Translations under genes and position numbers: made by a program | Notes under the pieces: model-generated | Told to the model about the DNA's origin: nothing | The model's input: the letters and a program-made list of their open reading frames with translations, nothing else | Database searches by the model: none | IMG/VR virus record: IMGVR_UViG_3300020463_000106 | Location: 1-28,047 of that record | Length of the DNA: 28,047 nucleotides | From: a virus | Direction: 5' to 3' (one strand) | Shown here: positions 1,573 to 27,090 of the stretch, piece after piece | How positions within the stretch are numbered: the stretch's first letter is position 1 | How the letters are laid out: every line of letters begins with the position of its first letter

Positions 1573-2232
1573 CTAAATTACATCATCTAGAGGAAATAAT
1601 TGATAAATTGATTCAGCACAAGCCTTTGCAATATCAATGTGTTCCTTTTGAGTACCATTTTCAGATCTTAATTGAATGTAATGAATCCAAGATCTTAAGG
1701 TTCCATTTACATACATACGTGACATTGTTAAACCTTCTGGTAAAACAGCTCGAGCTTGTTCTTTTGCAATACCTGCTTTTATTGCCCAGTCGTATGCATG
1801 TTTGCATCTTTCAATAATAACTTCTTGATAAGATTCCCATATATGATTTATTGAATCTTCCATAGGAATTTCTATTGAGTTTTGACGATTTTTAGTATCT
1901 TGTAATCTAGCTGGTCTAGTTACAAAGTTTAAATCTTCAGTAGGATCGGCATATCGCTGACTGAACTCTTGAAATGAAAAAGATCTATGCCTTAAGATCT
2001 GTCGAGCGATATCCCGTGTTGTTTCAATTTCCATACAAACATTGGCCATCTCAAGAGGTGACCAATGCTTATTTTTAATCAAATATTTAATCAATTTTTC
2101 GGCGGTCTCATTATTGTTTTGATTGCCAGGATTTGAAACCCTAGCACAATAAGCAACCAAATTTATCAAATCATCATCTAAATTTTCATCAATCATTGAT
2201 TTACTATATGAGACCACACGAACATTAAACAT
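1573..2232 (-). CDS. thyX: Flavin-dependent thymidylate synthase ThyX
   Basis: ThyX methylates dUMP to dTMP using methylene-tetrahydrofolate, NADPH and FAD. The 219-aa length is normal for the family, and the signature RHRxxSxxxxSxR is intact at residues 81-93 (RHRSFSFQEFSQR). Other conserved features include the substrate region around EQARAVLPEGL and MYVNGTLRSW. This matters for reading the rest of the genome: dTMP is supplied here, so the ThyA-fold enzyme at 9113-9784 is free to be a dCMP hydroxymethylase. The gene follows the 60-aa membrane peptide by a few bases at the end of the gp41 cluster. Confidence 0.95.
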   Translation of the reverse strand: MFNVRVVSYSKSMIDENLDDDLINLVAYCARVSNPGNQNNNETAEKLIKYLIKNKHWSPLEMANVCMEIETTRDIARQILRHRSFSFQEFSQRYADPTEDLNFVTRPARLQDTKNRQNSIEIPMEDSINHIWESYQEVIIERCKHAYDWAIKAGIAKEQARAVLPEGLTMSRMYVNGTLRSWIHYIQLRSENGTQKEHIDIAKACAESIYQLFPLDDVI

Positions 2233-3830: not shown

Positions 3831-4083
3831 TAATAATATGCTTTAATAAATCACCTAGATAATTATTAAAGTCTTCATCTTTTCTTAAATCATCGTGATC
3901 AAAATCACCTGGATCAACAATATTATATGTAAACTGTAATGTTGCCATATCTAATTGTTGATCTTCTAATATTTTTACTGTTCCATAAATTACCATTACG
4001 TTTTTGTATGGTGATTCTTTTGTAAACTTTAGAGCGTAAAAATCTGAATCAGGATGTTCTTGTGTAGTGTAATGATTATTCAT
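3775..4083 (-). CDS. Conserved small gene between uvsX and gp41, unknown function (102 aa)
   Basis: The start is set at the ATG at 4083, with an AGGAG element just upstream inside the end of uvsX. The gene overlaps uvsX by 8 nt and the gp41 start by 56 nt. The product has alternating strands (YALKFTKES, NVMVIYGTVKIL, ATLQFTYNIVD) and an acidic helical segment (DHDDLRKDEDFNNYLGDLLKH). It occupies the place of T4 gene 40, but I see no similarity to gp40 that I could defend. The context suggests a recombination or replication accessory role. Confidence 0.65.
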   Translation of the reverse strand: MNNHYTTQEHPDSDFYALKFTKESPYKNVMVIYGTVKILEDQQLDMATLQFTYNIVDPGDFDHDDLRKDEDFNNYLGDLLKHIINEGTIGKSTTDSRTESFT

Positions 4084-5131
4084 CTTCTCCTTCCACATCA
4101 AGTTCAATATCTAATAATGGCTTATGACCAATTTGATAATATGACTTTAAGAACTTTTTGAAATCAGTTTCTTTAAAGATTGGATCCCAAAACTCTTTTG
4201 TAAGTGTATCTTTTTCTCTAACTTTTGGATCAATCATTTCACCCGTGGCGTGATCCACTTTTGCGTACCAACCCATAGATGGCTTAGTAACATAACCACC
4301 AGCCAAGGCAACATCAAGCAAGCCAGAATAAGGTTCAATACCACCTTCCCAGCTACAACTAATAGGTACTTTCGATTTTTCTTTAACAAATCTAGATTTT
4401 TCGACATTAATAACAAAATTATATCCTTTTACTTCGGTTCCTTTTTTAACTTGTTGTCTACCAAGAATCCAAATGTTATCAGCTGAGTAATAAATACCTG
4501 TACCACCTGAAACAATTGCTTTTGGAAACAGTCCAATTTCTTGATATGTATGATTTACTGCAAGCAATGGAATATTTTTCATAGTTAAATAAGGTGTAAC
4601 CATTCTAAATAGACCTTTTAATGCTTTAGCCCTTGACATATCTGCAACAGATTTTTCGTTAAGAGCATCTTCTAATTCTTTCTTAGAAGCAAGGTTACCA
4701 ATAGAATCGATAACAATAACAACTTTATCTCCTCTATCAATATTATCTAGTTGACTTACTAGATCAAATTTTAATTGTTCGACATCAACAATAGGTGTAT
4801 GTAGCACTCTTGAAGTATCGATACCAAATGCTTCAAAATATGATTGTGGTGAACCAAATTCTGAATCATAAAATAATAACACTGCATCTTCGTGTTCTTT
4901 TAAATAAGCTGCAGCCATAAGTAATGCAAATGATGTTTTAAAGTGTTTACTTGGGCCGGCTAATACCGTTAGACCTGAAGTAAGACCACCATCTGGATCA
5001 CCTGACAGCGCAACGTTTACCATAGGTACATCTGTTGATACCATATCTTTTTCAGTAAAGAATTCTGATTTATTAAGTTCTTTTGTAAACTTAATTTTAG
5101 AATTCTTTTTAAGTTTATCCATTACTGACAT
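4076..5131 (-). CDS. uvsX: RecA-like recombinase UvsX
   Basis: UvsX forms a filament on single-stranded DNA and drives strand exchange, supporting recombination-dependent replication. The 351-aa product has Walker A GPSKHFKTS, Walker B VVIVIDSIGNL and the conserved IPLLAVNHTYQE segment, followed by VVSGGTG-like loop residues (IVSGGTGIYYSADN). The acidic C-terminus (DVEGEDE) is typical of RecA-type proteins. The ATG at 5131 has AAGGAG 6 nt upstream and overlaps the TAA of the S21 gene (TAATG), so the two are coupled. Confidence 0.95.
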   Translation of the reverse strand: MSVMDKLKKNSKIKFTKELNKSEFFTEKDMVSTDVPMVNVALSGDPDGGLTSGLTVLAGPSKHFKTSFALLMAAAYLKEHEDAVLLFYDSEFGSPQSYFEAFGIDTSRVLHTPIVDVEQLKFDLVSQLDNIDRGDKVVIVIDSIGNLASKKELEDALNEKSVADMSRAKALKGLFRMVTPYLTMKNIPLLAVNHTYQEIGLFPKAIVSGGTGIYYSADNIWILGRQQVKKGTEVKGYNFVINVEKSRFVKEKSKVPISCSWEGGIEPYSGLLDVALAGGYVTKPSMGWYAKVDHATGEMIDPKVREKDTLTKEFWDPIFKETDFKKFLKSYYQIGHKPLLDIELDVEGEDE

Positions 5132-5400: not shown

Positions 5401-5425
5401 AGTTCTCCTTTAATAATATAGTTAT

Positions 5426-5454
5426 ATTATACCATAAAATCAGTGATTTGTAAA
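5426..5454 (-). promoter_or_regulatory. Early sigma70-type promoter overlapping a stop codon
   Basis: Minus strand: TTTACA (5449-5454), 17 bp, TATAAT (5426-5431) preceded by ATGG. The stop codon of the C5 methyltransferase gene (5427-5429) is the TAA within this -10 box. The promoter points at rpsU and uvsX. A seven-A tract lies just upstream of the -35. Confidence 0.8.
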
Positions 5455-6614
5455 CAGTTTTTTTCATAATTATACGATTGTTTTCTATTATCAAATATTA
5501 AATAATTTGTATCAATCATATCTAAATTACCTTCTAAATATTTTTTTATCATTTTAGCTGGCCATTCAGCAGTTGTTACAGGCACATTTTGACACATGTG
5601 ATTTAAATTACGTTTAGGATCTAATAATTGAAAATCTTTAGGTAATTTCATAAGTGATAAAGCTTCCCTTACTGTTAGATAGCGATCTTCATCGGGATGA
5701 CTTAATGATGTTGGCATATGTCCTACAAAAGCTCCTATTTTATCTTTAGGAATCTCTGTAGTTTTTCTCATTATATTTCCACCAGATTTAAGTTTATGGT
5801 ATTGTCTATCACATTTTTTTGCAGTAGATTCGTAACCATTTTCTCGCATCCAGTTTGCTACTTCTTTATACGTAGTTCTTTCTTCAATGTAATCCATTGG
5901 ATTAACTGTTTTTTCAATTTTGTTTTGAAACTCTTGGTGTGTAATACCGCCTTCTAAAACTTCTAATACATATTTATAATATGGATTGTCAGTAGGTTTA
6001 CCATCATTACATAAAATTTGACTCATAGGATCATCATCACGTTTTTCAACATTACGAATATCTTCAGCGATATTTCCTGGTGGTTTATAGTGATAATTAA
6101 ATAATGGCACTTTATCATCTTTCCAAAAGAAATAAAATGTTCTATCTCTTACTTGTGATAATCCATGTAATATTGATTTTGTTTTAATTATTGAAAATGT
6201 ATAACCATTTTTTTCACCAATTTTTCTAAGTCTTTTTACAACTGGTTCACCCATTGCTGAAGCTAATCTTGGTGCGTTTTCACCCCAGAAAACTTTAGGT
6301 TGTATTTGTTCTAATACGTATTCAGCAGACGTATACATCCAATCGTTTGCTTCATTATTACTAGAAGCTGAAGGTGATAATGAACTTAATCCAGCGCATG
6401 GACATACTGTATTCACTACATCTACAGAATGCGGATGCTTTTCACCTTCAGACAAATTTAAATATGGTACTTCATTATTATAATAATTTATTAAGTGTGT
6501 TTCGTTAGCTTGAAATCCATCAAAGGTTAACATATAATCTGGTCTTTTACCAAATACATTTTCCATAGCTATCGTTTCGCCACCTATTAATGGTACAATA
6601 CTAGCGTAATTCAT
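5427..6614 (-). CDS. Cytosine-C5 DNA methyltransferase homologue, divergent
   Basis: The 395-aa product has the ordered motifs of C5 methyltransferases: motif IV with the catalytic cysteine (CPCAGLS, C73), motif VI (GENAP, 112-114), motif VIII (QVRDR, 154-158), and C-terminal motifs IX (LTVREALSLMKLP) and X (NVPVTTAEW). Motif I is atypical: PLIGGETIAMENVFG replaces the usual FxGxGG. The ATG at 6614 has GGAG 8 nt upstream and overlaps the previous stop (TAATG). The gene ends in ITDFMV, its TAA lying inside a promoter. It shares an operon with a dCMP hydroxymethylase and a glycosyltransferase, so its substrate could be ordinary cytosine, a defined sequence, or something less usual. Confidence 0.85.
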   Translation of the reverse strand: MNYASIVPLIGGETIAMENVFGKRPDYMLTFDGFQANETHLINYYNNEVPYLNLSEGEKHPHSVDVVNTVCPCAGLSSLSPSASSNNEANDWMYTSAEYVLEQIQPKVFWGENAPRLASAMGEPVVKRLRKIGEKNGYTFSIIKTKSILHGLSQVRDRTFYFFWKDDKVPLFNYHYKPPGNIAEDIRNVEKRDDDPMSQILCNDGKPTDNPYYKYVLEVLEGGITHQEFQNKIEKTVNPMDYIEERTTYKEVANWMRENGYESTAKKCDRQYHKLKSGGNIMRKTTEIPKDKIGAFVGHMPTSLSHPDEDRYLTVREALSLMKLPKDFQLLDPKRNLNHMCQNVPVTTAEWPAKMIKKYLEGNLDMIDTNYLIFDNRKQSYNYEKNCLQITDFMV

Positions 6615-7285
6615 TATCTTTCTCCAATATAAACCATAGACCAATTAAATTGTGTCCAATTTTTAGAATTATCCTTTAAAACTTTTGGAAACTGTTCTTT
6701 AATAGATGTATATAATCTATAAGGTTTACCTTCTTTAGGATTTTTTAAATCACCCCAACCTTTCCAATCTATTTCTATAGCTATTCTTTTTACTGAAGCT
6801 GGAAGTTTTTTATTTTCTAAATTTAAAAAATACTCACCACCTTCAATATCTATCTTTAAAATATCAGGTTGTTCTTTTTCAATAATTTTCCAAAAATCAT
6901 ATGATTTAACCTTGATTTCTTTACGGCCTCTTCTTTTTACCATAGAATGTAATCCATGGTTTTTACCTTGATTTATATAAAAATTATTTTCGCCATCATT
7001 ACATGAAGCTATTCCTTCATATAGTGTTACATTACTTAAATTTTTAGTGTTTTGTTTATAATACTTTATATTAATTGGATCTGGTTCAAAAGAAATAATT
7101 CTATTTATGCCGTATGTAGAGGCTAACAAACTAGTATAACCTTTATTACCACCCAGCTCGAAAAAACATTTAGGATTATTTTCAAAAAGTTTTTGATAAC
7201 CACTTTGTTCTGCAATTATTTTAAGATCAAATGTATTTGGAATATAATACACTTTTTGACCATAATATTTTTCAGTATATTCCAT
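6614..7285 (-). CDS. FkbM-family SAM-dependent methyltransferase
   Basis: The 223-aa product has a Rossmann SAM-binding core: FELGGNKGYTSLLAS (motif I, residues 42-56), ISFEPDP (65-70) and LKIDIEGGEY (143-152), the FkbM hallmark. FkbM enzymes usually O-methylate sugars or small-molecule hydroxyls. The ATG at 7285 lies in a TAATG overlap with the glycosyltransferase stop, and the stop overlaps the next ATG in the same way, so three enzymes form one tightly coupled unit. By context it may methylate the sugar or hydroxyl that the glycosyltransferase adds. That is inference; a virion glycan is an alternative target. Confidence 0.85.
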   Translation of the reverse strand: MEYTEKYYGQKVYYIPNTFDLKIIAEQSGYQKLFENNPKCFFELGGNKGYTSLLASTYGINRIISFEPDPINIKYYKQNTKNLSNVTLYEGIASCNDGENNFYINQGKNHGLHSMVKRRGRKEIKVKSYDFWKIIEKEQPDILKIDIEGGEYFLNLENKKLPASVKRIAIEIDWKGWGDLKNPKEGKPYRLYTSIKEQFPKVLKDNSKNWTQFNWSMVYIGER

Positions 7286-8097
7286 TAAAAAAAATCCTCC
7301 AACGAGTTCATTTGACTTGATTGATACGCTTTTTTATGATATATTGTAACAACAAGTTTCTTTTTACCTTTCCATGGACCTGATACTACATCTTTTTCTT
7401 TTACTTTTACAAACTCTGGCCACAAATTAGCAAGATCTTGTTGAGCTTGGTTAGCAACTTCTAATGTGCGCCATGTAGAACATCCACCATCAGCATTAGT
7501 TTCAGAACAACCAACCATATATTTAGCTGATATTCTATTTTTAAAACCTCGTGTTAGCAGTTGTAAGTTTACATCAAAGTCTTCACCTGCATGTAATCTA
7601 TTCCATTCAATATCTCTTGGTATTTTTGGACCATTGTAAAATACATTAGTCATTATTCTTTGACATTCTCTAATAGGCCATTGTCTTAAATCAGGAATTA
7701 CCCAAACTGGTAAAAACCCACCATAACAAATACCTTCATTAATCCATTCATTTATTAAATTAAATGCATCATCAAAATCTTCATTAGTATACTTACGACT
7801 TAACCATTTTGTTCCTTCACCAGGATTTGGTTCTTTTACAACAAATTCTAAATCATCATCAAATACAAAGTGAATTGAATCTTTAAACTCATTAAATATC
7901 CACTCTCTAGTAGGTGCAATACGATTTATATTTTCAGGCAAACATAAAACTTTATCACCATACTTGGATTTCATTTCTTCAAATTCATGAGTTTGTACTA
8001 CAAACTTTGTTATATCTTGATATTTTTTTGGAAGAGCATTATATGTTAATTGTTTATCCATTCTTCCCAAGGTTGGTATTATAATATGTTCTATCAT
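7285..8097 (-). CDS. Glycosyltransferase, TAGT-like (candidate DNA-base glycosyltransferase)
   Basis: The 270-aa product looks like a GT-A glycosyltransferase. It begins IIIPTLGRMDKQLTYNALP, has APTREWIFNEF (61-71), a DDD metal motif in HFVFDDDLEF (80-82) and GED at 171-173 as a likely acidic catalytic site. This pattern (PTxGR, TR-WI, DDDL) fits my recollection of the TET-associated glycosyltransferases that decorate hydroxymethylated bases in phages. No TET/JBP oxygenase is seen here, but a dCMP hydroxymethylase lies about 1 kb upstream. The last six residues, SLEDFF, resemble the clamp-binding tail of gp43 (TLDDFFG). An eight-T run spans the final codons. Assignment to GT-A is firm; the DNA target is inferred. 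Confidence 0.75.
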   Translation of the reverse strand: MIEHIIIPTLGRMDKQLTYNALPKKYQDITKFVVQTHEFEEMKSKYGDKVLCLPENINRIAPTREWIFNEFKDSIHFVFDDDLEFVVKEPNPGEGTKWLSRKYTNEDFDDAFNLINEWINEGICYGGFLPVWVIPDLRQWPIRECQRIMTNVFYNGPKIPRDIEWNRLHAGEDFDVNLQLLTRGFKNRISAKYMVGCSETNADGGCSTWRTLEVANQAQQDLANLWPEFVKVKEKDVVSGPWKGKKKLVVTIYHKKAYQSSQMNSLEDFF

Positions 8098-8104
8098 TTT
8101 TATT

Positions 8105-8398
8105 TTATCCTGTTAGAGTTGCTACTAAATTATTAGCTAAAAATATTAAACCTACACCATTTAGTAGTATTAATGCTCTATCTTTCCATATTACTGATAC
8201 AATCAACCATAAGAAAATTCCTATAATGGAAAGATATAAGTCATATATTTCCATTCCTTCAACACCTCTAATTGACATAGCCATTAGTATAAAAGCAGAT
8301 GCTATCCACTTACAATACCAGCTAACATCGTATTTAGGCGTAGCTGATTTAAATATTCTTTTACTATTTTCTAATTCTTTTTTATCGTATTTTGTCAT
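8105..8398 (-). CDS. Membrane protein, three predicted spans (97 aa)
   Basis: A charged 25-residue N-terminus is followed by three hydrophobic segments: WIASAFILMAMSI, LYLSIIGIFLWLIVSVIW and ALILLNGVGLIFLANNLV. The likely product is an inner-membrane protein. It sits between a 56-aa gene and the glycosyltransferase, with short spacers on each side, in the same transcription unit. No family is recognised. Its place in a modification operon does not by itself imply a modification role. Confidence 0.7.
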   Translation of the reverse strand: MTKYDKKELENSKRIFKSATPKYDVSWYCKWIASAFILMAMSIRGVEGMEIYDLYLSIIGIFLWLIVSVIWKDRALILLNGVGLIFLANNLVATLTG

Positions 8399-8404
8399 TT
8401 AAAT

Positions 8405-8575
8405 TTATTTTTCCTTTTTTATAAACATAATTTGGCCTTGTGATCCTAATTTTAATACAAAAGTATCACCTTCTTTAAGACCAGTGTTTTCAACTTTAAT
8501 CATCTCATCTGGATCAACATCAGCCATTGTTAATCCATTTTCATTTAAAACAAATGTAAAATCTGCGTAAAACAT
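8405..8575 (-). CDS. Small hypothetical protein (56 aa)
   Basis: The ATG at 8575 is chosen because AAGGAG lies 6-7 nt upstream. An in-frame ATG at 8602 would run through this site and through the 3' end of the tRNA gene, so it is unlikely. The 56-aa product is acidic and beta-rich by appearance (MFYADFTFVLNE, DTFVLKLGSQGQIMFIKK), perhaps a small barrel. No family is recognised. Confidence 0.6.
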   Translation of the reverse strand: MFYADFTFVLNENGLTMADVDPDEMIKVENTGLKEGDTFVLKLGSQGQIMFIKKEK

Positions 8576-8590
8576 TTTTATCTCCTTATC

Positions 8591-8667
8591 TGGCGCACCC
8601 ACCAGGAGTCGAACCTGGAACCTACAGCTTAGAAGGCTGTTGCTCTATCCAATTGAGCTATGGGCAC
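8591..8667 (-). tRNA. tRNA-Arg (anticodon UCU)
   Basis: A 77-nt cloverleaf reads on the minus strand from GTGCCCA to an encoded CCA. The acceptor stem is GTGCCCA/TGGGTGC with two GU pairs. The D arm contains AGCTCAATTGGATAGAGC, the anticodon stem ACAGC/GCTGT encloses CTTCTAA (anticodon TCT), and the T arm contains GGTTCGACTCC. UCU reads AGA and AGG; AGA appears frequently in these AT-rich genes, so the tRNA may supplement the host supply. It lies in the gap between dCMP deaminase and the 56-aa gene. Confidence 0.95.
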
Positions 8668-8670
8668 AAA

Positions 8671-9123
8671 CTATATAGTAGTTATATATTCGTATTTTAT
8701 CCCAGCCTCTTTAAATAAAGCTTTGGTTAATCTAGTGGACACTGCCCACTGCTCAGGTGTTCCATTTGTAACTGGTGTTGATACAACTCTTTTTACACCA
8801 ACTTGTATCAATCCCTTAGCGCATTCACTACAAACCGGTAATCCATAAATGTATATTGTACTTCCATTTAAAGATACACCATTATAGGTAGCGTTGTATA
8901 TGCAATTCATTTCTGCATGAACTACATACTTATATTTTTCTTCTCTATTAGTTAAACGTTCTTCTTTATCTTCAATACCACGTGGAAATCCATTATATCC
9001 CTGTGCTAAAACTTGGCCCTTTTTACCAATAGCTACAGCACCTATTTGTGTACTTGGATCTTTTGACCAAGTAGATATCTCTCTAGCTAGTCTAATATAT
9101 TTTTTATCCCAATCATTTGACAA
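8671..9123 (-). CDS. cd: Deoxycytidylate (dCMP) deaminase
   Basis: The enzyme deaminates dCMP to dUMP, feeding thymidylate synthesis. The zinc site is intact: HAE at 69-71 and C98 and C101 in LPVCSEC, in a 150-aa product of family length. The start is uncertain. Family members usually begin MSNDWDK..., which here corresponds to a TTG at 9123 with AGAGG about 10 nt upstream; ATG codons at 9141 and 9147 would add 6-8 residues. It overlaps the end of the hydroxymethylase gene by 11 nt with the TTG start. Both enzymes use dCMP, so their balance could set the ratio of hydroxymethyl-dCMP to dUMP. Confidence 0.93.
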   Translation of the reverse strand: MSNDWDKKYIRLAREISTWSKDPSTQIGAVAIGKKGQVLAQGYNGFPRGIEDKEERLTNREEKYKYVVHAEMNCIYNATYNGVSLNGSTIYIYGLPVCSECAKGLIQVGVKRVVSTPVTNGTPEQWAVSTRLTKALFKEAGIKYEYITTI

Positions 9124-9784
9124 GATTAAAATGCCTCTCATATACATGCAAGTTTTGTACTTGCCAATAGATACTACCTACATCTACATCGAGTTCAGTA
9201 GCTAATTCAGCAAGAACATATTCTTGCCAAGCGTAATCGTTACGATAACCAAATATTACGTCATTTGAACGCATTTGTACTACACAATGTAATTCACCAT
9301 TACGAATATAATACGTTACTGAGTTTGTACAAATAAAATCATTTTTACCGTTTTCATTATATTCTTCCCATATTGAAGGCCTAGTATAAATCATCGATGC
9401 TCGACGTGAATCAGGATTTCTAGTTAATTCTAAAACTACTTGTTCAAATTGTCCATAATATTTTTCTGACCAAATTAAATGGCCATAATTAGAATTGATT
9501 TCACCATGCTCATTTGCAGTAAGTTTCCAAGCCATTGGCGGTTCTTTATCTGTATCATAACGGCCGTTATCGTATATATCAAAAATATTTGTAGATTGAG
9601 ACCTATACCATTCGATTTCATCTCTAATATATTCATCATTTGGCTCACCAAATATAGCTGGTTCATTAGCACAAAATGAAGCACCAATCAATTCAATTGT
9701 TTTTGCACCAGTTCTATCAATAGTAAAGCGTTTATTACTTAATTCATTAATAAAATATTGCTGAATTTGACTAATCTCTAACAT
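9113..9784 (-). CDS. 42: dCMP hydroxymethylase, T4 gp42 type
   Basis: The 223-aa product has the ThyA fold and matches T4 gp42 closely as I recall it: TGAKTIELIGASF, EINSNYGHLIWSE, NPDSRRASMIYTRPS and MRSNDVIFGYRNDYAWQ. The catalytic cysteine is C152 (ICTNS). D183 in GYRNDYAWQ occupies the position where thymidylate synthases have asparagine; aspartate there marks dCMP specificity. The expected reaction is dCMP plus methylene-tetrahydrofolate to 5-hydroxymethyl-dCMP. ThyX elsewhere supplies dTMP. The C-terminus stops soon after the LHVYERHF motif and is roughly 20 residues shorter than T4 gp42. It overlaps both neighbours slightly. Confidence 0.9.
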   Translation of the reverse strand: MLEISQIQQYFINELSNKRFTIDRTGAKTIELIGASFCANEPAIFGEPNDEYIRDEIEWYRSQSTNIFDIYDNGRYDTDKEPPMAWKLTANEHGEINSNYGHLIWSEKYYGQFEQVVLELTRNPDSRRASMIYTRPSIWEEYNENGKNDFICTNSVTYYIRNGELHCVVQMRSNDVIFGYRNDYAWQEYVLAELATELDVDVGSIYWQVQNLHVYERHFNLVK

Positions 9785-10115
9785 TTGATTTCCTATTTAA
9801 AAGATCTTTGTCAATAGCGTCTTGACCAGGAATACCACCACGAAGATACGCAACTAAAAACGAAGCATAATTAATAAGATCTTTACCTGAATCTTCGAGT
9901 GATTCAAAATTAGGTTCATAATCTGGATCAGATTCCATTGCTTCTAAAACACTCCACATACGTAAAGTTTTTGCGTTTATAATATCAAGAATAGAAGCAA
10001 TACCTCTAGGATAATAATCTGCTTGTTGTATTCTTGAGTTTTCGTTTTGATAATCTTGTGACTTACGTGTTTGTAATTCAGCACATTCTTGTAAAACTTT
10101 TAATGATTCTTTCAT
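9771..10115 (-). CDS. Nmad1/DUF1599-like nucleotide-modification-associated protein
   Basis: The 114-aa all-helical product has KSQDYQ at 18-23, a central helix (ILDIINAKTLRMWSVLEAM) and EDSGKDLINYASFL at 74-87. These resemble the KNxDYG and DLxNYA motifs of DUF1599, named nucleotide modification associated domain 1. The assignment is from motif memory and is moderate; a helical NTP-pyrophosphohydrolase-like fold is the alternative. The ATG at 10115 has AAGGA 7 nt upstream. It is the first gene behind promoter 10142-10170 and leads into the hydroxymethylase, with a 14-nt overlap. Confidence 0.6.
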   Translation of the reverse strand: MKESLKVLQECAELQTRKSQDYQNENSRIQQADYYPRGIASILDIINAKTLRMWSVLEAMESDPDYEPNFESLEDSGKDLINYASFLVAYLRGGIPGQDAIDKDLLNRKSNVRD

Positions 10116-10609
10116 AGTTGATTCCTTATTTTATAGTTATTATTATACCATAGTTCTGGTGTAATGTAAACCATTTTTTGCATTTTTTTATCATATTCAT
10201 ATATACCATGTAGTTTATAATCACCTTCTAAAGCATCTCCAATCCAACCATATACTCTATGATTTAATTGTCTTTTAGGCCAATTAGTTCTTTCTTGTTT
10301 CATTATTCGCCACATATATTCATCAACTCTTTGATTTAATTTATATCTAGAATAACTTACTTTATGCTCAGCTTCAATATTATCTTGGTCAATTGTATCA
10401 AAATATTCTTCTGGATTATCAGTTTGACCAAGATGTGTCATAGCAATCCATTCAGCATAATGTCCTTTTATGGTATTTGGTAATATATCTGTATCAAAAC
10501 ATCGATGGGCATCTTTTTTATTACTTTTTATTAGTCGTGCTTCATATGTAGCTCTTTCTTTTACTAATTTCTCATCTAATCCTATTTCGTATATATTCCA
10601 ATTAAACAT
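10112..10609 (-). CDS. Hypothetical protein, possible nuclease-like fold (165 aa)
   Basis: The ATG at 10609 has AAGGA 5 nt upstream and follows the nuclease stop by 1 nt; an in-frame ATG at 10639 lies inside the nuclease gene. The segment GHYAEWIAMTHLG... EYFDTIDQD... EHKVSYSRY has the spacing of a PD-(D/E)xK nuclease (G-AE helix, D, then ExK-like EHK), but this is only suggestive. The C-terminal codons (LWYNNN region) run across promoter 10142-10170, and the stop overlaps the next ATG (ATGA). No family is firmly recognised. Confidence 0.65.
   Translation of the reverse strand: MFNWNIYEIGLDEKLVKERATYEARLIKSNKKDAHRCFDTDILPNTIKGHYAEWIAMTHLGQTDNPEEYFDTIDQDNIEAEHKVSYSRYKLNQRVDEYMWRIMKQERTNWPKRQLNHRVYGWIGDALEGDYKLHGIYEYDKKMQKMVYITPELWYNNNYKIRNQL
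10142..10170 (-). promoter_or_regulatory. Early sigma70-type promoter inside a coding region
   Basis: Minus strand: TTTACA (10165-10170), 17 bp, TATAAT (10142-10147) preceded by ATGG. It lies within the last codons of the 165-aa gene and is the nearest promoter for the Nmad1-like, hydroxymethylase, deaminase, tRNA-Arg, glycosyltransferase and methyltransferase genes. An A-rich tract lies upstream of the -35. Confidence 0.75.
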
Positions 10610-11036: not shown

Positions 11037-11588
11037 TCATTTATAAAACAAGTGATTATCAATAGTAACCACATGTTCAAGTTGTTTTGACCAATATGGT
11101 TCTACAAAATCTGCATGATACCATAGTGATCCTTCAGTTATATCAGGATATTTTCCTGTTAATACTAAATTTGCTATCCACACAGATGTTAACCATGTGT
11201 CTGAATCTTTAGGTACATCAGGTTTACCATCACAATACCAACTAAATTGACATTGATTTTTAATGGGAACCTCGTTACCTTTCCAGTTAATTTTTGTTTT
11301 TGACTGATAAATTACATCACATACATTGTTTGGAAATAATTCTGAGTGCTGTCTATTTATTGCAACATGTGCTACTGCAACTTTACCCGCAAATGATTGA
11401 TTTGCAGCTTCGAAGTAAATATTTTTTGCTATGCATATTACTGGTTCATTTTGCAAATAAATTTGGTGGCCATGATATGTTATATTATGATCATCACCAT
11501 AAGCTTTTCCAGCTGCAAGGAATAACCACATCAATAATATAAACCAACCTAGGTATAATATTCCTTTATCTACTTTATCATCCTTCAT
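11037..11588 (-). CDS. SleB-type cell wall hydrolase (Hydrolase_2) with N-terminal membrane segment
   Basis: The 183-aa product has an N-terminal hydrophobic segment (ILYLGWFILLMWLFLAAG, 10-27) that would act as a signal anchor or cleavable leader. The Hydrolase_2 domain follows: CIAKNIYFEAANQSFAGKVAVA (catalytic glutamate E60), INR, QFSWYCDG, and the C-terminal LWYHADFVEP and HLFY. SleB-like enzymes cut peptidoglycan glycan strands. In a phage this suits lysis or spanning of the wall. The ATG at 11588 has AGGAG 7 nt upstream and overlaps the end of the cytidylyltransferase gene by 11 nt. It lies among replication genes rather than with lysis genes, which is unusual. Confidence 0.87.
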   Translation of the reverse strand: MKDDKVDKGILYLGWFILLMWLFLAAGKAYGDDHNITYHGHQIYLQNEPVICIAKNIYFEAANQSFAGKVAVAHVAINRQHSELFPNNVCDVIYQSKTKINWKGNEVPIKNQCQFSWYCDGKPDVPKDSDTWLTSVWIANLVLTGKYPDITEGSLWYHADFVEPYWSKQLEHVVTIDNHLFYK

Positions 11589-12000
11589 TTTTTTCTCCTA
11601 ACATAGAATTTCTTAGTGTTGTACTACTAAATCTATGAGCTCTATTATTAAAGTATAATTCAATATCTCTTTCACGACATATTTCTTTACCAGTAAAATC
11701 TTTGTATCTATATTCTTCACCAAGTATACGAACATTAATTGTATACAATTCTAATATATCCATTAGATCTCTTTCAGTTGAATATGGAATTATTTCATCG
11801 ACGTATTTTACGGCTTTTAGTTGAGTATATCTTTCAACTACTGTTTGTATTGGTTTATTCTTACTATCAGATCTATCTATTGTTGGATCAATTTGTAATC
11901 CACATATCAAATAATCACATTGTTGTTTAGCTTCTCTTAACATTTGTACATGCCCCGCATGTAATAAATCAAATGTGCTACATGTAAATCCTATTTTCAT
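11578..12000 (-). CDS. Cytidylyltransferase, glycerol-3-phosphate cytidylyltransferase (TagD)-like
   Basis: The 140-aa product has the nucleotidyltransferase motif GFTCSTFDLLHAGHVQML (HxGH at 14-17) and the C-terminal RFSSTTLR, both needed for CTP binding. TagD-type enzymes make CDP-glycerol from CTP and glycerol-3-phosphate; related enzymes activate other alcohol phosphates or heptose phosphates. The substrate cannot be told from sequence alone. It starts in an ATGA-type overlap with the primase-like gene and overlaps the wall hydrolase. A role in making an activated donor for glycan or DNA decoration is possible but unsupported. Confidence 0.88.
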   Translation of the reverse strand: MKIGFTCSTFDLLHAGHVQMLREAKQQCDYLICGLQIDPTIDRSDSKNKPIQTVVERYTQLKAVKYVDEIIPYSTERDLMDILELYTINVRILGEEYRYKDFTGKEICRERDIELYFNNRAHRFSSTTLRNSMLGEKNEG

Positions 12001-12914
12001 AAATTATTCTTAAAAACAAATTCGATAGCTCTATCGGCTTCTTTTTCGAAATCACGTTTGGCATACCAGTTGCCTGTATCATTATCTAAATCTTGGCATA
12101 TCCACGCGATTTCTTTAGCTGTAATTGGATAACCACGGGCCACTGCATTACCTGCAGTTGATACCATTATTTGGTACATTTTAGAATACCAGCCACTACC
12201 ACTTATTGTTCTATATTCTTCAACGTGTGATTTATTTACAAAAGGGCAGTCTCTATATCCCGTCCATGAAAAGTCAGTTTTATTGAGTGTTTCTTTTCTG
12301 TGTTTGATAAGTCCTTCTTTGATTGCGTCTGGAAGCTTATCGAAAAACGATTCATTTGGTATGACATATCTGTGTTTCTCCATGAGAGCTTTTGGATCCA
12401 TGACGCTTCCTTCATGGGAAAATATAAAGTTGTAAGAGCCTTTGTATTTACTAGGGATGTAGTACATCCTACTAAGATCTTTTGTTTGAGCATCAGCGAT
12501 GTCTCCTATTTCTTTGTTAAGTGCGAACCAAAAGTGTTTAATATTATCAACATCTACATGTTCTGTTAATGGAAATACTAATCTAAATTTTGGATGTTCT
12601 TTTGTAGATGACGCTGTCGAATAACAAACATATCGATATTTAGAATATTTATTATGTATTTCTTCAATATCACCTTCGTAATCATCAACATCAATGATGC
12701 CGAAACCACCCCAGCCGGTTACATTGGAATTTGCTCGGGTGGTCTCGGTCTTATAAATTGCTGGTGAAATTAATGGTGCATCCGTTTTTTTAGGATACTT
12801 ATCACTTTCTGCTAGCTTATATAATATACTTTCAAATTCATCGAATGAATTATAATCCATTCTTTTTTCTGTTTTATTATCGTATATAGAATCAAATATC
12901 GTTAAACTTACCAT
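11997..12914 (-). CDS. Putative archaeo-eukaryotic-type primase/PrimPol-like protein
   Basis: The 305-aa product carries a pattern typical of AEP-superfamily phage and plasmid primases: IIDVDD at 73-78 (metal-binding DxD), YSTASSTKEHPKFRLVFPL at 98-116, and DLSRMYYIPS at 146-155. The histidine usually seen in motif II (SxH) is not obvious; a serine occupies that area. The C-terminal half (about 215-305) is helical and may be a primase-C or DNA-binding domain. It is flanked by MazG-like and cytidylyltransferase genes, with gp43 nearby. No DnaG-type gp61 is in the window, so this could serve as primase or gap-filling polymerase. Confidence 0.65.
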   Translation of the reverse strand: MVSLTIFDSIYDNKTEKRMDYNSFDEFESILYKLAESDKYPKKTDAPLISPAIYKTETTRANSNVTGWGGFGIIDVDDYEGDIEEIHNKYSKYRYVCYSTASSTKEHPKFRLVFPLTEHVDVDNIKHFWFALNKEIGDIADAQTKDLSRMYYIPSKYKGSYNFIFSHEGSVMDPKALMEKHRYVIPNESFFDKLPDAIKEGLIKHRKETLNKTDFSWTGYRDCPFVNKSHVEEYRTISGSGWYSKMYQIMVSTAGNAVARGYPITAKEIAWICQDLDNDTGNWYAKRDFEKEADRAIEFVFKNNL

Positions 12915-13293
12915 GATTACCTTTGTGTGATGGTGCCTCCCAATCTTCTGGTTTAACCAGATCTGGTAGTCCTAGTGGATTAGGTCTTTCTGCTTTAACA
13001 CCTACGTTTTTTCTCATATTTGCATAAAGTACTTCATCCCATGCTTTATATGGATCAACTCCAAATGCATCAAGTGTACCAATTGCAACGACACATAGAT
13101 CAATAAGACCATCAACGACTTCTTCTGCGTCGTTTAACATATATGCTTGTCTTGTTTCATCTAATTCTTCTTGTAAAAATGCTATCCTAAACTTTAAAAA
13201 TTCTTTTAGTTTTTCAGGATTATTTTCAACCCAGTCTCTTGTTCGATATTTACTTTGCATTTGGTAAATATCATCTACCCAGTCTTTACTCAT
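12892..13293 (-). CDS. MazG-like all-alpha NTP pyrophosphohydrolase
   Basis: The 133-aa helical product has EELDE at 42-46 and EEVVDGLID at 57-65, the paired acidic motifs that bind magnesium in the MazG/dUTPase-like all-alpha superfamily, followed by the hydrophobic helix LCVVAIGTLDAFG. Such enzymes hydrolyse (d)NTPs to monophosphates. T4 gp56, the dCTPase that excludes normal cytosine, belongs to this superfamily, so a dCTPase role here is a testable idea given the hydroxymethylase. The gene overlaps the primase-like gene by 23 nt and follows the Sm-like gene in a 1-nt overlap. Confidence 0.82.
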   Translation of the reverse strand: MSKDWVDDIYQMQSKYRTRDWVENNPEKLKEFLKFRIAFLQEELDETRQAYMLNDAEEVVDGLIDLCVVAIGTLDAFGVDPYKAWDEVLYANMRKNVGVKAERPNPLGLPDLVKPEDWEAPSHKGNHGKFNDI

Positions 13294-13621: not shown

Positions 13622-16159
13622 TTATCCAAAGAAATCATCTAGTGTTGCGATTTCCTTAGATGACCAACCCACAGCATCAAGAATTGGTTCAATAGGATCA
13701 AGAAAAGTTTTTTGAAACTGTGTTTCGTAATCAATATACTTTTCAAGTCCAAACTCACGAGGCAGATAATCGATAAACGAAATAACGTTTTCATGAATTT
13801 TGTTGGGTTTACGTAGATAAACAAATTTGAGTTTATCGCCGTTTTTGATTTGTTCGTATCTTTTTTGTAATGCTAGGTCTATAACTTGTTTATTGTATAG
13901 TAATGCACCACGTACATGAATTGGTGTACCCTTTCTGTAAATTAGGTTGTTGTCTTTAAATTCTCGAACTTTGGTAGCACCTCGAGGAAAAGCAATATCA
14001 TGAGCAGACAATGTATCAAAGTGTTGTTTAAAGGCTTCAATTGATTTTTGAGTTTCTGATTCATTACCCTGAATAATTACTTTAAATATTTGTTTTAAGG
14101 CATCACGACATGGCGCCGGTGTAGACGATTTAATAGCTTCGATACCCATGATTTTGAGTTTTGGTTCAGCGTAACGAACACCTTCGTTATCTTGAACATT
14201 TAGAATATATCTTTTCTTAGCTGTCCATATACCACGATCGGCAATAGCTTCACGTTTCATAACCATGCGATTAGATATCCCGCCAAGTTGAGAATATAAA
14301 TTATCATATGCTTTTGCAAGTACTGGTTCAAACTTATCTTCACATACAGTATCTAAGAAGTCAGTAGTATTGTTTGGTTGAACTGCTTTAGTTAAGTCTT
14401 CTAGACCTACATAAAGAGAATCAGTATCGATTGCAAGAACATAATCTTTAAAAGTTTGATCTTTGCGTAATATTTTATTTAGGTAATCATTAAGAGCATA
14501 TTCAGCCCAGCGTATTGTAAGTTGACCTGTTAGTGTAATAGCTTCAGCTACTCGTTGATCAAAGAATCTAAAGTATTGATTACCCATTGCACCGTAAAGT
14601 GAATTAAGTAAAATCTTAATAGACATTTGCTGGTTTTCTGCGATTGCAATATCACGTTCAATAGCATATAATTCTTGTTTATCTTCTTTATCAACTTTTT
14701 GTAATTTAATTTGTGATTGAATCATTTGGTTTTTGATTTCAACACGTTCACTGTACATTTCATCAATAATAGTTGGAATAATACCTTTGAATTCAGTGTT
14801 AAAGTATTGACCGTTTGCAGCAAGTGCTTTACCTTTGTTGTTAGGTTTATAAGAACCTGCAAGCATTCCTTCTAAGTCAAAGTTAGTTATTTCACCTTCA
14901 GCAATAGTTTCGGGTGACATATTGTATTGCATAATAATAGAAGGATATAGCGAGTTTAAGTCAAAGCTGACAATGTTTTCGTGTATTCCAACCTGCGGAT
15001 CTTTTACATAACCACCAGGATAAAATGTTTTGTTTTGATCACGTTTTAGTGGTACTGCAATTTTGTGTTCGAACAATTTACGATAAATGATTGTGTCCCA
15101 TATATTAGTTGTACCAAATGTGTCGTTGTAATTTACACCAGCCTTATAAGCCATAGTCATACATAACGTAATTAATCCAAGCTTATCTTCGAGACGATCA
15201 ACTAATTCAACATCTTTAATGTTATAGTCAATAAATTTTTGATGGTCGGTTTGATATAAAGTATGTAGTGAACCAGCTTCTTCGTAAGATAGTTTTCTTT
15301 CACCAAGCACAACGTTAGCAATATGATCGAGTTTGTATGTTTCTTGTGGACCATATGAATAACCAAACTTTTTAAACAAATCAAGATAATCTAGATTAGA
15401 TAAACCCATGATTGTATACCGCTTACCATTACGAGCAGTTTGTTTACCAGGGATGACATCAATACGCATTGCATTACGATTTTGATGATATGGTGAAAGA
15501 CGTTTAGCATAAGCTTCGCCAATTACTTTACACATACGATTGTACATATAAGGAACATCAAAGAATGATGTATTCCAACCCGTAATAACATCTGGCATAT
15601 TAGATGGTTTTGACCACCAGGTTATAAAGTTAATCAATAGATCTGCTTCAGTATTAAATCGAGAATATACAACTCTATGAGATTTCATATAGGATATTGA
15701 TGTATCATATTCACCGAGACCCCACACATAGTATGTATTATCAATATTATTTTTACATGTAATAGATATAATCGGACTATCGGCCTGTTCTGGCTCGGGG
15801 AAACCATTGTCAGACGCAACCTCAATATCGATAGTAGTGACATTTATTTTGTTACGATCGAATTGAATTTGACCAGGAAAATAGTCATTGATAAACGCAG
15901 CGGTATAGTTGGTATTACCAAATATGTGGAGCCCGGCTACTTGTTTGTTGTTATTCATCCACTCTTTTGCTGAATTCATAGAATCAAATTTGACTTGACC
16001 AACTGGTGTACCGTCGAGTGCTTTCCACGCAGATGGCTTATTTGTCGCGACAAAAAGTGATGGTTCGTATTTTACTGTTTCTTTGATTTTTTTGTTATGG
16101 TCATAACCACGGTAGTAGATATAATTACCGTATTTTGTGACATGCGTATAAAATTTCAT
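13622..16159 (-). CDS. 43: DNA polymerase gp43 (family B)
   Basis: The 845-aa replicative polymerase is somewhat shorter than T4 gp43 (898 aa). The exonuclease domain has TTIDIEVASD (DxE at 111-113). The polymerase domain has motif A SFDLNSLYPSII, motif B KILLNSLYGAMGN and motif C AIDTDSLYV, all intact. The protein ends IATLDDFFG, which matches the sliding-clamp-binding tails of T4-like polymerases. It has its own promoter (16189-16217); the ribosome site is weak. In T4, RegA represses its own message and several early messages, and gp43 represses its own, but no operator could be assigned with confidence here. Confidence 0.97.
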   Translation of the reverse strand: MKFYTHVTKYGNYIYYRGYDHNKKIKETVKYEPSLFVATNKPSAWKALDGTPVGQVKFDSMNSAKEWMNNNKQVAGLHIFGNTNYTAAFINDYFPGQIQFDRNKINVTTIDIEVASDNGFPEPEQADSPIISITCKNNIDNTYYVWGLGEYDTSISYMKSHRVVYSRFNTEADLLINFITWWSKPSNMPDVITGWNTSFFDVPYMYNRMCKVIGEAYAKRLSPYHQNRNAMRIDVIPGKQTARNGKRYTIMGLSNLDYLDLFKKFGYSYGPQETYKLDHIANVVLGERKLSYEEAGSLHTLYQTDHQKFIDYNIKDVELVDRLEDKLGLITLCMTMAYKAGVNYNDTFGTTNIWDTIIYRKLFEHKIAVPLKRDQNKTFYPGGYVKDPQVGIHENIVSFDLNSLYPSIIMQYNMSPETIAEGEITNFDLEGMLAGSYKPNNKGKALAANGQYFNTEFKGIIPTIIDEMYSERVEIKNQMIQSQIKLQKVDKEDKQELYAIERDIAIAENQQMSIKILLNSLYGAMGNQYFRFFDQRVAEAITLTGQLTIRWAEYALNDYLNKILRKDQTFKDYVLAIDTDSLYVGLEDLTKAVQPNNTTDFLDTVCEDKFEPVLAKAYDNLYSQLGGISNRMVMKREAIADRGIWTAKKRYILNVQDNEGVRYAEPKLKIMGIEAIKSSTPAPCRDALKQIFKVIIQGNESETQKSIEAFKQHFDTLSAHDIAFPRGATKVREFKDNNLIYRKGTPIHVRGALLYNKQVIDLALQKRYEQIKNGDKLKFVYLRKPNKIHENVISFIDYLPREFGLEKYIDYETQFQKTFLDPIEPILDAVGWSSKEIATLDDFFG

Positions 16160-19699: not shown

Positions 19700-19707
19700 T
19701 ATTTATA
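19700..19707 (-). promoter_or_regulatory. T4-type late promoter (TATAAATA) overlapping the gp45 stop
   Basis: The minus strand reads TATAAATA across the gp45 stop codon (TAA at 19703-19705). It lies about 105 nt upstream of the ATG of the 96-aa gene, with the two leader hairpins between. Confidence 0.8.
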
Positions 19708-20413
19708 CACCGTAACTTGACGATTTTTCAAGAGCAATAAAATATTCAACTGGAATATCATTGTTTTTCCAATTGGATATTAGCCTTGAAGAAATCGAAA
19801 CTTTATAATCGCCATGTAGCATTTTTAAATTTGAAATACTAAAGACGAAATCAAATGTTTCTGTTGAAGTTGTATCAAGTGTGATATTAAATGTATTTGC
19901 AGTAGCGTCTCTTTCATCAAAGACTTTTGCAACAACTTCAGCGCTATCACGTGGTGATCCACCACTGTCACAGCTAAACATTAATTCTGTATGTCCAAGA
20001 ACTGCAGCAGCTTTTTTGATTCTATCTAAATCATCAGATGATAAATCAAAGCTTACTTCACATTTTGGCATGTTGATATCTTTACTTGGTTGTGTTAGAA
20101 TATCAAGTTCAGAGTAATAGTATCTTACCTTTGTTGAATTTGGTCTTTTAACACCACCTGCTGTATTTGAAACAAGAACAGACTTGTCTTCAAATGTTAA
20201 AACTGGAGCATCGACTAAATTCATTACAGATAAGAATTCATTCAAATCGTATACACCAAATTCATGATCAAAGTTTTCAGCAATAGAAGCTTTTGCCATA
20301 ATAGTTTTAGCTTCTGATATAGTTGAAAGTGATTGACCAGGTTTAAATACTAGATTAGAATTAATACCCGCAAAGTTTTTGAGGATATTAACCGTATTTT
20401 CAGATAATTGCAT
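19703..20413 (-). CDS. 45: Sliding clamp gp45
   Basis: gp45 is the trimeric processivity ring for gp43 and also activates late transcription through gp55 and gp33. The 236-aa product matches gp45 in length (T4: 228 aa), start (LSENTVNILKNFAGINSNLVFKPGQ) and internal features such as EFGVYDLNEFLSVMNL, the KVRYYYSELDIL segment and a C-terminal ISNLKMLHGDYKVSIS followed by VEYFIALE. It is followed by its loader genes. The ATG at 20413 has AGGA 7-8 nt upstream, and its stop codon is part of the late promoter at 19700-19707. Confidence 0.94.
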   Translation of the reverse strand: MQLSENTVNILKNFAGINSNLVFKPGQSLSTISEAKTIMAKASIAENFDHEFGVYDLNEFLSVMNLVDAPVLTFEDKSVLVSNTAGGVKRPNSTKVRYYYSELDILTQPSKDINMPKCEVSFDLSSDDLDRIKKAAAVLGHTELMFSCDSGGSPRDSAEVVAKVFDERDATANTFNITLDTTSTETFDFVFSISNLKMLHGDYKVSISSRLISNWKNNDIPVEYFIALEKSSSYGV

Positions 20414-27082: not shown

Positions 27083-27084
27083 AT

Positions 27085-27090
27085 ATTATA
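27085..27090 (-). promoter_or_regulatory. Possible extended -10 element overlapping the gp55 stop
   Basis: The minus strand reads TTTATGGTATAAT with the -10 TATAAT at 27085-27090, the same extended -10 as in the full promoters, but the position 17 bp upstream (27108-27113) reads AGAAAA, not a -35. It sits 3 nt from the gp47 ATG, so a transcript would be leaderless or nearly so, or the match is partly due to the MV-stop codons. Weak candidate. Confidence 0.3.

Follow-up and report, generated by a model that had tools for sequence, protein, structure and literature searches.

A minus-strand gene unit of a marine T4-like phage probably encodes a cytosine hypermodification system, in which a gp42-type enzyme would supply hydroxymethylcytosine (hmC), a TAGT glycosyltransferase held on the sliding clamp would add a sugar, an FkbM enzyme would act further, and the decorating genes would sit in a slot that can be refilled. 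The window, the whole stretch of virus DNA analyzed here, comprises 28,047 nt (positions 1 to 28,047 of IMG/VR record IMGVR_UViG_3300020463_000106) and is a fragment of a genome. An earlier note, a model's reading of the sequence alone, had placed the unit at 5427 to 10115, and the open reading frame (ORF) listing contains all of the genes that it named, on the minus strand and in the order it gave. The features discussed below, all on the minus strand, are as follows.

10142 to 10170, minus strand: promoter of the unit, TTTACA, 17 nt and TATAAT with a TATG extension (extended -10)
9771 to 10115, minus strand: small DUF1599/Nmad1-like protein, first gene of the unit
9113 to 9784, minus strand: dCMP hydroxymethylase of the T4 gp42 type (C152, D183, D149, E56, S98, Y100), by profile, phmmer and alignment
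8671 to 9147, minus strand: dCMP deaminase (PF00383, E 1.6e-18)
8591 to 8667, minus strand: tRNA-Arg (TCT) within the unit
8405 to 8602, minus strand: small ORF, found in the closest relatives only
8105 to 8398, minus strand: DUF6552 protein of 97 aa, bordering the slot on its left in many relatives
7285 to 8097, minus strand: TAGT glycosyltransferase (DDD 80-82, D173, NAxGGC 201-206; PF20691, phrog_842)
7288 to 7305, minus strand: SLEDFF C-terminal tail of TAGT, resembling the putative clamp-binding tail of the polymerase
6614 to 7285, minus strand: FkbM-family methyltransferase (PF05050, TIGR01444), inserted at the junction of the TAGT and C5-methyltransferase genes
5427 to 6614, minus strand: C5-cytosine methyltransferase homologue, catalytic motifs (C73, E112, QxRxR) invariant across relatives
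5426 to 5454, minus strand: second promoter, which starts the uvsX unit and whose bases also encode the end of the C5-methyltransferase homologue (LQITDFMV)
4076 to 5131, minus strand: uvsX, right flank of the slot
1573 to 2232, minus strand: ThyX, a separate thymidylate synthase (PF02511, E 4.9e-43)
11578 to 12000, minus strand: cytidylyl/adenylyltransferase (HldE/TagD-like), candidate for making the activated donor, within the slot in some relatives
12892 to 13293, minus strand: MazG-like (PRA-PH) pyrophosphohydrolase, candidate dCTPase replacing T4 gp56
13622 to 16159, minus strand: DNA polymerase gp43, C terminus TLDDFFG
19703 to 20413, minus strand: gp45 sliding clamp (PF09116, E 1.2e-12)

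The tRNA gene and the two small ORFs lie between the dCMP deaminase and TAGT genes. The Nmad1 label given to the first gene stands by way of relatives: the window copy falls below the DUF1599 profile (PF07659), but syntenic homologues in two of them (L007 and L050) score above its cut-off (E 3.6e-9 and 6.3e-8). The promoter proposed for the unit is real, as the 12-mer TATGGTATAATA occurs in 7 exact copies in the window against 0.02 expected. Allowing one mismatch, a copy precedes the first gene in 37 of 73 relatives and none of 119 inner genes (dCMP deaminase, the inositol-phosphate synthase MIPS, and TAGT). In the window, the unit's end is marked by another copy, at 5425-5436.

The proposed starting enzyme is closest to T4 gp42 (phmmer E 8.3e-70, 54% identity; PF00303 E 6.5e-18), and the residues on which the gp42 assignment had been based, C152 and D183, have C148 and D179 as their aligned counterparts in T4. 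In the alignment, T4 E60, W82, S94, Y96, R123, R124, D145, C148, and D179 are all kept in 78 of 78 homologues, while I81 and R59 are not kept in the window enzyme. D145, S94, Y96, and D179 are tied in T4 to dCMP and hydroxymethylation (PMC6400193). Given this closeness to gp42 and the presence of the hydroxymethylase-specific D145 with S94 and Y96, the predicted conversion of dCMP to 5-hydroxymethyl-dCMP is strongly supported. It is very improbable that the product is 5-methyl-dCMP or dTMP instead. The superfamily is the same, "thymidylate synthase" is the name used by Pfam and NCBIfam, and Ala replaces T4 I81, but T4 gp42 is the nearest solved relative (E 8e-70, against only 2e-11 for the best thymidylate synthase), the cytosine-specificity Asp and D145 occur in all 78 homologues, and with ThyX present the phage has no need of another ordinary thymidylate synthase.

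The supposition that T4-like marine phages usually lack gp42 proved wrong: 165 IMG/VR stretches encode close relatives of the enzyme, and gp42-bearing marine T4-like phages are common. To our knowledge, gp42 is absent from the well-studied cyanophages. Homologues of gp1 and gp56, a check named by the earlier note, were found neither in the window nor in the contigs of five larger relatives (84-113 kb, all fragments) with family profiles that do match T4 as a positive control, so complete replacement of cytosine is only putative. The PRA-PH family has been linked to modified contigs (PMC8670742).

The TAGT assignment was borne out by the Pfam profile (PF20691, E 2.1e-20, 74 bits against a cut-off of 27.5) and by a match to phrog_842, "beta-glucosyl-HMC-alpha-glucosyltransferase" (E 7.6e-41). 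The DDD, the catalytic D173, and the GGC motif are common to the TAGTs of the window, Serratia phage PS2, and Acinetobacter. The predicted structure is of moderate confidence (pLDDT 77), with best PDB matches that include the GT-A enzymes TarP and TarS as well as nucleotidyltransferases, at TM values below 0.5; a PDB sequence search gave no match. As had been suspected, the protein is unrelated to the T4 alpha- and beta-glucosyltransferases, yet it belongs to a family that acts on phage hmC DNA. There is no TET/JBP dioxygenase among the unit's proteins, so hmC would come from gp42 instead.

In T2 and T6, TAGT adds a second sugar onto an already attached first one (PMC13216743), and direct transfer to hmC is therefore only putative for this family. 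The enzyme might likewise act here after another glycosyltransferase encoded elsewhere in the genome, of which the window is only a fragment, and in one relative (L123) a TAGT-like gene adjoins an AGT gene. We regard this as unlikely: neither the window nor a 97.9-kb TAGT-bearing relative has an AGT or beta-glucosyltransferase profile match (the beta search being one without a positive control), the place that a-gt takes in T4, between genes 47 and 55, is empty in the window, and TAGT is the sole recognized glycosyltransferase of the slot in the relatives' TAGT intervals.

Judged by gene content, marine T4-like relatives use the interval bounded by gp42/dCMP deaminase and uvsX as a slot for exchange, as do T4 and RB69. 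Among 59 complete hydroxymethylase-to-uvsX intervals, TAGT occurs in 9, AGT (PF11440) in 3 (with an AGT-like gene in L116), MIPS with HMUDK_hel (PF18723) in 24, the UDP-galactopyranose mutase GLF (PF03275) in 6, and a nucleotidyltransferase with a second glycosyltransferase in 7 each. Several of the slot families are known DNA-modifying families.

The slot enzymes also share an ending. The tail motif LE(D/E)FF, learned from the relatives' DNA polymerase alone and then sought at the C termini of other ORFs, ends 13 of 16 TAGTs, 3 of 4 AGTs, and 36 of 46 proteins of c0, a third slot family unrelated to these (52 of 66 together). Among 1,731 other ORFs it was present in 2, each encoding a modification enzyme, and it occurred in none of the hydroxymethylases (0/82), deaminases (0/75), or MIPS proteins (0/35); HMUDK_hel ends in LTEFFE. 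The window TAGT tail is a short acidic and hydrophobic extreme C terminus like that of the same phage's polymerase and of the same type as the clamp-binding peptides of gp43, gp55, and gp33 (T4 gp43 and gp55 end in SLDFLFG and SLDFLYEAND). C termini of that kind are exchangeable gp45 clamp-binding motifs in T4 (PMC2988020). Comparison supports a tail that would tether TAGT to the gp45 clamp, and the occurrence of the polymerase's tail on unrelated slot enzymes suggests decoration at the replication fork. We think it reasonably likely that unrelated decorators (TAGT, alpha-glucosyltransferase, an SGNH-like protein, and a hydroxymethyl-DNA-kinase-like helical protein) each gained the polymerase's putative clamp-binding tail, with one peptide thereby linking an exchangeable cassette to the fork; the cassettes' precursor-making enzymes lack it. 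The exchange in marine relatives and the polymerase-like tails are, as read from sequence, what is new here.

The tails could alternatively be a by-product of the next gene's ribosome-binding site, GAGGA being read as Glu-Glu/Asp, and codons GAG GAN do stand just ahead of the next start in TAGT, AGT, and most c0 genes. This source was largely rejected and seems rather improbable: the motif ends only 1 of 291 other ORFs with a ribosome-binding-site-like sequence in their last 24 nt, that one being AGT-like; the polymerase often encodes it without such a sequence (GAT GAA, GAA GAC); several synonymous Leu and Phe codons are used; and LTEFFE in HMUDK_hel uses ACT GAA. A clamp-binding peptide is the preferred explanation, but its effect may be small. 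The T4 alpha-glucosyltransferase binds gp45 without the tail, and in T4 the modification ratio was not determined by this binding (PMC13216743). The tail is also absent from T-even-type and Manatee Spring TAGTs.

Cassette exchange in relatives and the polymerase-like tail together support action on DNA, and so back the glycosyltransferase part of the earlier claim that both TAGT and FkbM decorate the hydroxymethyl group. The FkbM part is weaker. The family is confirmed (PF05050, E 1.9e-8, 35.1 against a cut-off of 22.7 bits; TIGR01444, 59.6 against 37.7 bits), but the substrate is conjectural. The gene is a recent insertion in one lineage, missing from the sibling L004 and therefore accessory, and homologue searches of viral contigs and bacterial genomes returned no close relative. 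Both enzymes might instead modify host-surface lipopolysaccharide against superinfection, as the authors of a pelagimyophage study read the glycosyltransferases of such phages (PMC7029224); polysaccharides are often substrates of FkbM enzymes. Against this, TAGT has its family and phrog membership, a unit shared with dCMP hydroxymethylase, and the polymerase-like tail, and the relatives' slot carries a T4-type DNA alpha-glucosyltransferase. For the pair we consider a surface role quite improbable; it is a stronger candidate for FkbM, to which the family, slot, and tail arguments do not extend.

In the mechanism that we propose, the gp42-type enzyme would convert dCMP to 5-hydroxymethyl-dCMP while, to judge from their families, dCMP deaminase, ThyX, and the MazG-like pyrophosphohydrolase would steer the dCMP/dCTP pool. 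Replication would bring hmC into DNA, as in T4. TAGT would then attach a single sugar to the hydroxymethyl group. Because its SLEDFF tail would hold the enzyme to the gp45 clamp, the new strand would be coated near the fork. FkbM, a recent gain, may O-methylate the sugar. The cassette slot would set the decorating enzyme, with relatives refilling it with unrelated chemistries. Monoglycosylated hmC made near the fork, optionally O-methylated, is the most likely product; the final base could be a new one, and glucose is also possible. We know of no chemistry for the virion DNA of any such phage.

Phage DNA decoration determines which restriction and CRISPR defenses fail. If our reading of the tail is true, it is a portable signal marking which modification-cassette genes act on DNA, and the last residues of proteins could lead to unknown DNA-modifying enzymes, of which the c0 family would be an example. 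The tail would also explain simply how decorators of different descent come to replace one another at a single locus. A further suggestion is that, in some marine T4-like phages, the genes for a "second thymidylate synthase" and for sugar enzymes serve to modify DNA rather than acting in metabolism or on surfaces.

Known systems show parts of this arrangement. T4 has dCMP hydroxymethylase, a DNA glycosyltransferase, and then uvsX (42/b-gt/uvsX), makes hmC with a sugar (here predicted from genes), and has a gp45 clamp with proteins bearing C-terminal binding motifs, to which the tails here are similar by sequence. The T4 enzyme, however, is a GT-B glucosyltransferase rather than TAGT, T4's own glucosyltransferases lack the tail, and the interval here also holds dCMP deaminase, FkbM, and the C5-methyltransferase homologue. 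Serratia phage PS2 carries a TAGT with the same catalytic residues between gp42 and uvsX, but it also has b-gt, and its TAGT is 26% identical to that of the window and lacks the LE(D/E)FF tail. RB69 places decorating genes in the polymerase-uvsX interval (PMC6024577). Shewanella phage Thanatos encodes gp42 and dCMP deaminase together with a 561-aa glycosyltransferase/phosphotransferase protein (PMC12838424). To judge by its length and domains, that protein resembles the fused protein in the slot of phage XG4. The pentose modification of RB69 and Thanatos involves other enzymes and another sugar, and neither phage is known to us to have a C5-methyltransferase homologue. The MetaGPA 5-carbamoyloxymethyl-cytosine clusters (eLife 2021) likewise join a thymidylate-synthase-family enzyme with a specificity-site Asp, dCMP deaminase, and PRA-PH to a variable decorating enzyme, there a carbamoyltransferase (PMC8670742).

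For the last gene of the unit, the ATG at 6614, which overlaps the stop of FkbM, is the most likely start; this corrects an upstream TTG start. Its product matches PF00145 (DNA_methylase, E 9.3e-18), and its model (pLDDT 91) matches the M.HhaI/M.HaeIII class (E 1e-11 to 1e-9); a PDB sequence search gave no match. With PC, EN, and QxRxR motifs intact and invariant in relatives, it is probably active on DNA. Because hmC cannot accept a C5 methyl by the usual reaction, the earlier view of this protein as a mere further decorating step is not supported; most simply, it may methylate, at specific sites, cytosines that escape replacement. It ends in a pattern of its own, LQ(L/I)(T/D)(D/E)FM(V/L), which we set aside as a clamp motif because the next unit's promoter overlaps its codons.

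The modification unit described in the earlier note is confirmed: the window carries a system of a known kind, cytosine hydroxymethylation with likely glycosylation, in a new variant. The record (28,047 bases, virus) is part of a T4-like phage, with Pfam matches to polymerase gp43, the clamp loader, the gp45 clamp, gp46, and uvsX; gp41 and gp47 were assigned because DnaB-type and phosphoesterase matches fall where these genes are expected, and gp55 by position and sequence only. The nearest annotated relative of the polymerase, from phage C48C1 (Kyanoviridae), is 51% identical. On the minus strand, the unit spans a strong promoter (10142-10170) to a second one (5426-5454) and encodes, in order, a DUF1599/Nmad1-like protein, the dCMP hydroxymethylase, dCMP deaminase, a tRNA-Arg, two small ORFs, a TAGT glycosyltransferase, an FkbM methyltransferase, and a C5-methyltransferase homolog. 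The tRNA-Arg (TCT, 8591-8667) lies directly behind the deaminase gene.

The window contains seven copies of the promoter 12-mer TATGGTATAATA, where 0.02 would be expected. Allowing at most one mismatch, it sits where the C5-methyltransferase gene ends in 66/77 relatives and upstream of the unit's first gene in 37/73, and never upstream of the inner genes for dCMP deaminase, inositol-phosphate synthase, and TAGT (0/119 in relatives). Because it marks the borders of the unit and is absent before inner genes, the genes are very probably cotranscribed. At 5425-5436 and 27084-27095, the 12-mer overlaps the preceding gene's stop and therefore encodes the C-terminal FMV of the C5-methyltransferase homolog and gp55.

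The hydroxymethylation claim is well borne out. The hydroxymethylase (9113-9784) is 54% identical to T4 gp42 and matches it at E 8.3e-70 in phmmer, versus about 1e-11 or worse for thymidylate synthases. In an alignment of T4 gp42 with 78 homologs from the phage group of the window, T4 residues E60, W82, S94, Y96, R123, R124, D145, C148, and D179 are kept in 78/78; the exceptions are I81, replaced by Ala, and R59, which is not conserved. T4 gp42 selects cytosine through D179, and its hydroxymethylation site is lined by S94, Y96, and D145 (PMC6400193). In one survey, viral contigs with modified cytosine were associated with the Asp variant, dCMP deaminase, and a PRA-PH pyrophosphohydrolase (PMC8670742), and all three are present in the window (the last at 12892-13293). 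ThyX (1573-2232) is an independent dTMP route. The "two different thymidylate synthases" reported with dCMP deaminase in pelagimyophage group C (PMC7029224), set beside the window by description, may be the same pair of ThyX and a gp42-type enzyme. The supposed rarity of gp42 in marine T4-like phages did not hold, as 165 stretches encode gp42 relatives. Profile search of the window and of five contigs measuring 84-113 kb, all of them fragments, turned up neither T4-type dCTPase gp56 nor dNMP kinase gp1; both family profiles match T4 as a positive control.

Glycosylation is likely right as well. The product of 7285-8097 belongs to the TAGT family (74 bits against PF20691, cut-off 27.5) and matches phrog_842, "beta-glucosyl-HMC-alpha-glucosyltransferase"; its DDD, catalytic Asp, and GGC recur in the TAGTs of Serratia PS2 and Acinetobacter, to which it is 26% identical. 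Its AlphaFold model (pLDDT 77) bears a weak likeness to GT-A enzymes such as TarP/TarS (TM below 0.5). Among 753 phage genomes encoding glycosyltransferases of this sort, 288 carry only TAGT, according to a study that proposed new transferases (PMC13216743); as far as the fragment shows, the window unit is of this solitary kind. No alpha-glucosyltransferase match was found in the window or in a 97.9-kb TAGT-bearing relative, and the window interval between 47 and 55, the place of a-gt in T4, is empty.

The decorating genes occupy an exchangeable slot before uvsX. In T4, 42, b-gt, and uvsX are consecutive; Serratia PS2 has 42, an unknown gene, TAGT, b-gt, and uvsX; RB69 likewise carries novel genes between polymerase and uvsX (PMC6024577). 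We examined 59 nonredundant marine loci with a complete hydroxymethylase-to-uvsX interval, the proportions of which are not a survey because the loci came from three protein queries.

Slot content in the marine loci (c0, SGNH-like family; c9, another slot family; AGT, T4-type alpha-glucosyltransferase, PF11440)
TAGT: 9/59 intervals
AGT-family enzymes with epimerase or nucleotidyltransferase: 3/59, plus an AGT-like enzyme in locus L116
Nucleotidyltransferase and a second glycosyltransferase, phage XG4-like: 7 intervals with each
Epimerase, c9, and UDP-galactopyranose mutase: 6/59
Inositol-phosphate synthase, HAD, HMUDK_hel, and c0: 24/59
PLP-enzyme cassette with c0

Several of these families are already known to modify DNA. 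The C5-methyltransferase homolog is common in the slot, not obligatory, since it closes 48/59 intervals overall and is present in 19/30 of those entering via the hydroxymethylase query. The model of this C5-METHYLTRANSFERASE homolog has a confident C5-methyltransferase fold (pLDDT 91), and the catalytic Cys, Glu-Asn, and QxRxR are invariant across 47 sequences.

The commonest cassette among the intervals examined, found in loci L050, L158, L172, and others between dCMP deaminase and the C5-methyltransferase homolog, comprises inositol-1-phosphate synthase, a small HAD-like protein, a 5-hmdU-DNA-kinase helical-domain protein, and c0 (motif GDSHS ... FGNIDIRHH); the last two carry a clamp-like tail. 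This cassette may decorate hmC with inositol or an inositol derivative. Loci such as L014, L070, L072, L128, and L171, where the slot contains an epimerase, the unknown c9, and UDP-galactopyranose mutase, suggest a galactofuranose-type decoration. Seven further loci (L108, L109, L110, L112, L118, L129, and L162) combine families u1, u6, u4, and c0 variously, without the C5-methyltransferase homolog; the u4 representative has a weak PLP-enzyme match.

The FkbM gene lies precisely where the stop of the TAGT gene meets the start of the C5-methyltransferase gene; in the sibling locus L004 (85-87% nucleotide identity), these two genes are joined directly, with no FkbM between them. The G+C content of FkbM is 26% versus 30-32% for its neighbors, and no close relative was found in the viral contigs and bacterial genomes searched. 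A distant FkbM occupies the slot of seven inositol-type cassettes. These two separate appearances favor an enzyme that acts on the decoration, most likely by O-methylating the sugar, so the methylation earlier proposed is plausible.

The window TAGT ends in NSLEDFF and the window polymerase in TLDDFFG; in T4, gp43 ends in SLDFLFG and gp55 in SLDFLYEAND. Such short acidic-hydrophobic T4 C termini bind the gp45 clamp and are freely exchangeable (PMC2988020). A motif learned from 52 polymerase C termini alone, then applied to all other ORFs, was found in 13/16 TAGTs, 3/4 AGTs, and 36/46 c0 proteins, and in 2/1731 remaining ORFs excluding HMUDK_hel (the L116 AGT-like enzyme and a C5-methyltransferase homolog in locus L145); the Fisher value of 1e-84 is inflated by kinship. 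HMUDK_hel proteins, with the variant LTEFFE, score 0/36 with this motif and 21/36 with a wider one drawn up after examples had been seen. Three TAGTs do not fit the motif: one ends in LEAFF, one is from Manatee Spring phage, outside the group, and one (locus L012) probably has a broken frame. Small-molecule enzymes lack the tail: hydroxymethylase 0/82, deaminase 0/75, inositol-phosphate synthase 0/35, mutase 0/7, and epimerase 0/14. A ribosome-binding site was largely rejected as its source, as only one of 291 other ORFs with an RBS-like sequence in the last 24 nt, the AGT-like enzyme, ends in the motif.

The tail is thus common to the polymerase and at least three unrelated families. It looks to have been gained within the phage group of the window, since T-even-type TAGTs, the Manatee Spring TAGT, and T4's own glucosyltransferases have none. 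That decorating enzymes are plugged into the replisome through this shared tail is a new, testable idea, its novelty provisional because subscription journals lay outside our literature search; the literature covered describes a clamp link for T4 alpha-glucosyltransferase only.

In cyanophage S-TIM54 (L093), Asp occupies the specificity site of ThyA (GVPLDMF); together with an AGT-like gene and the C5-methyltransferase homolog, this makes it a candidate hmC or mC cyanophage.
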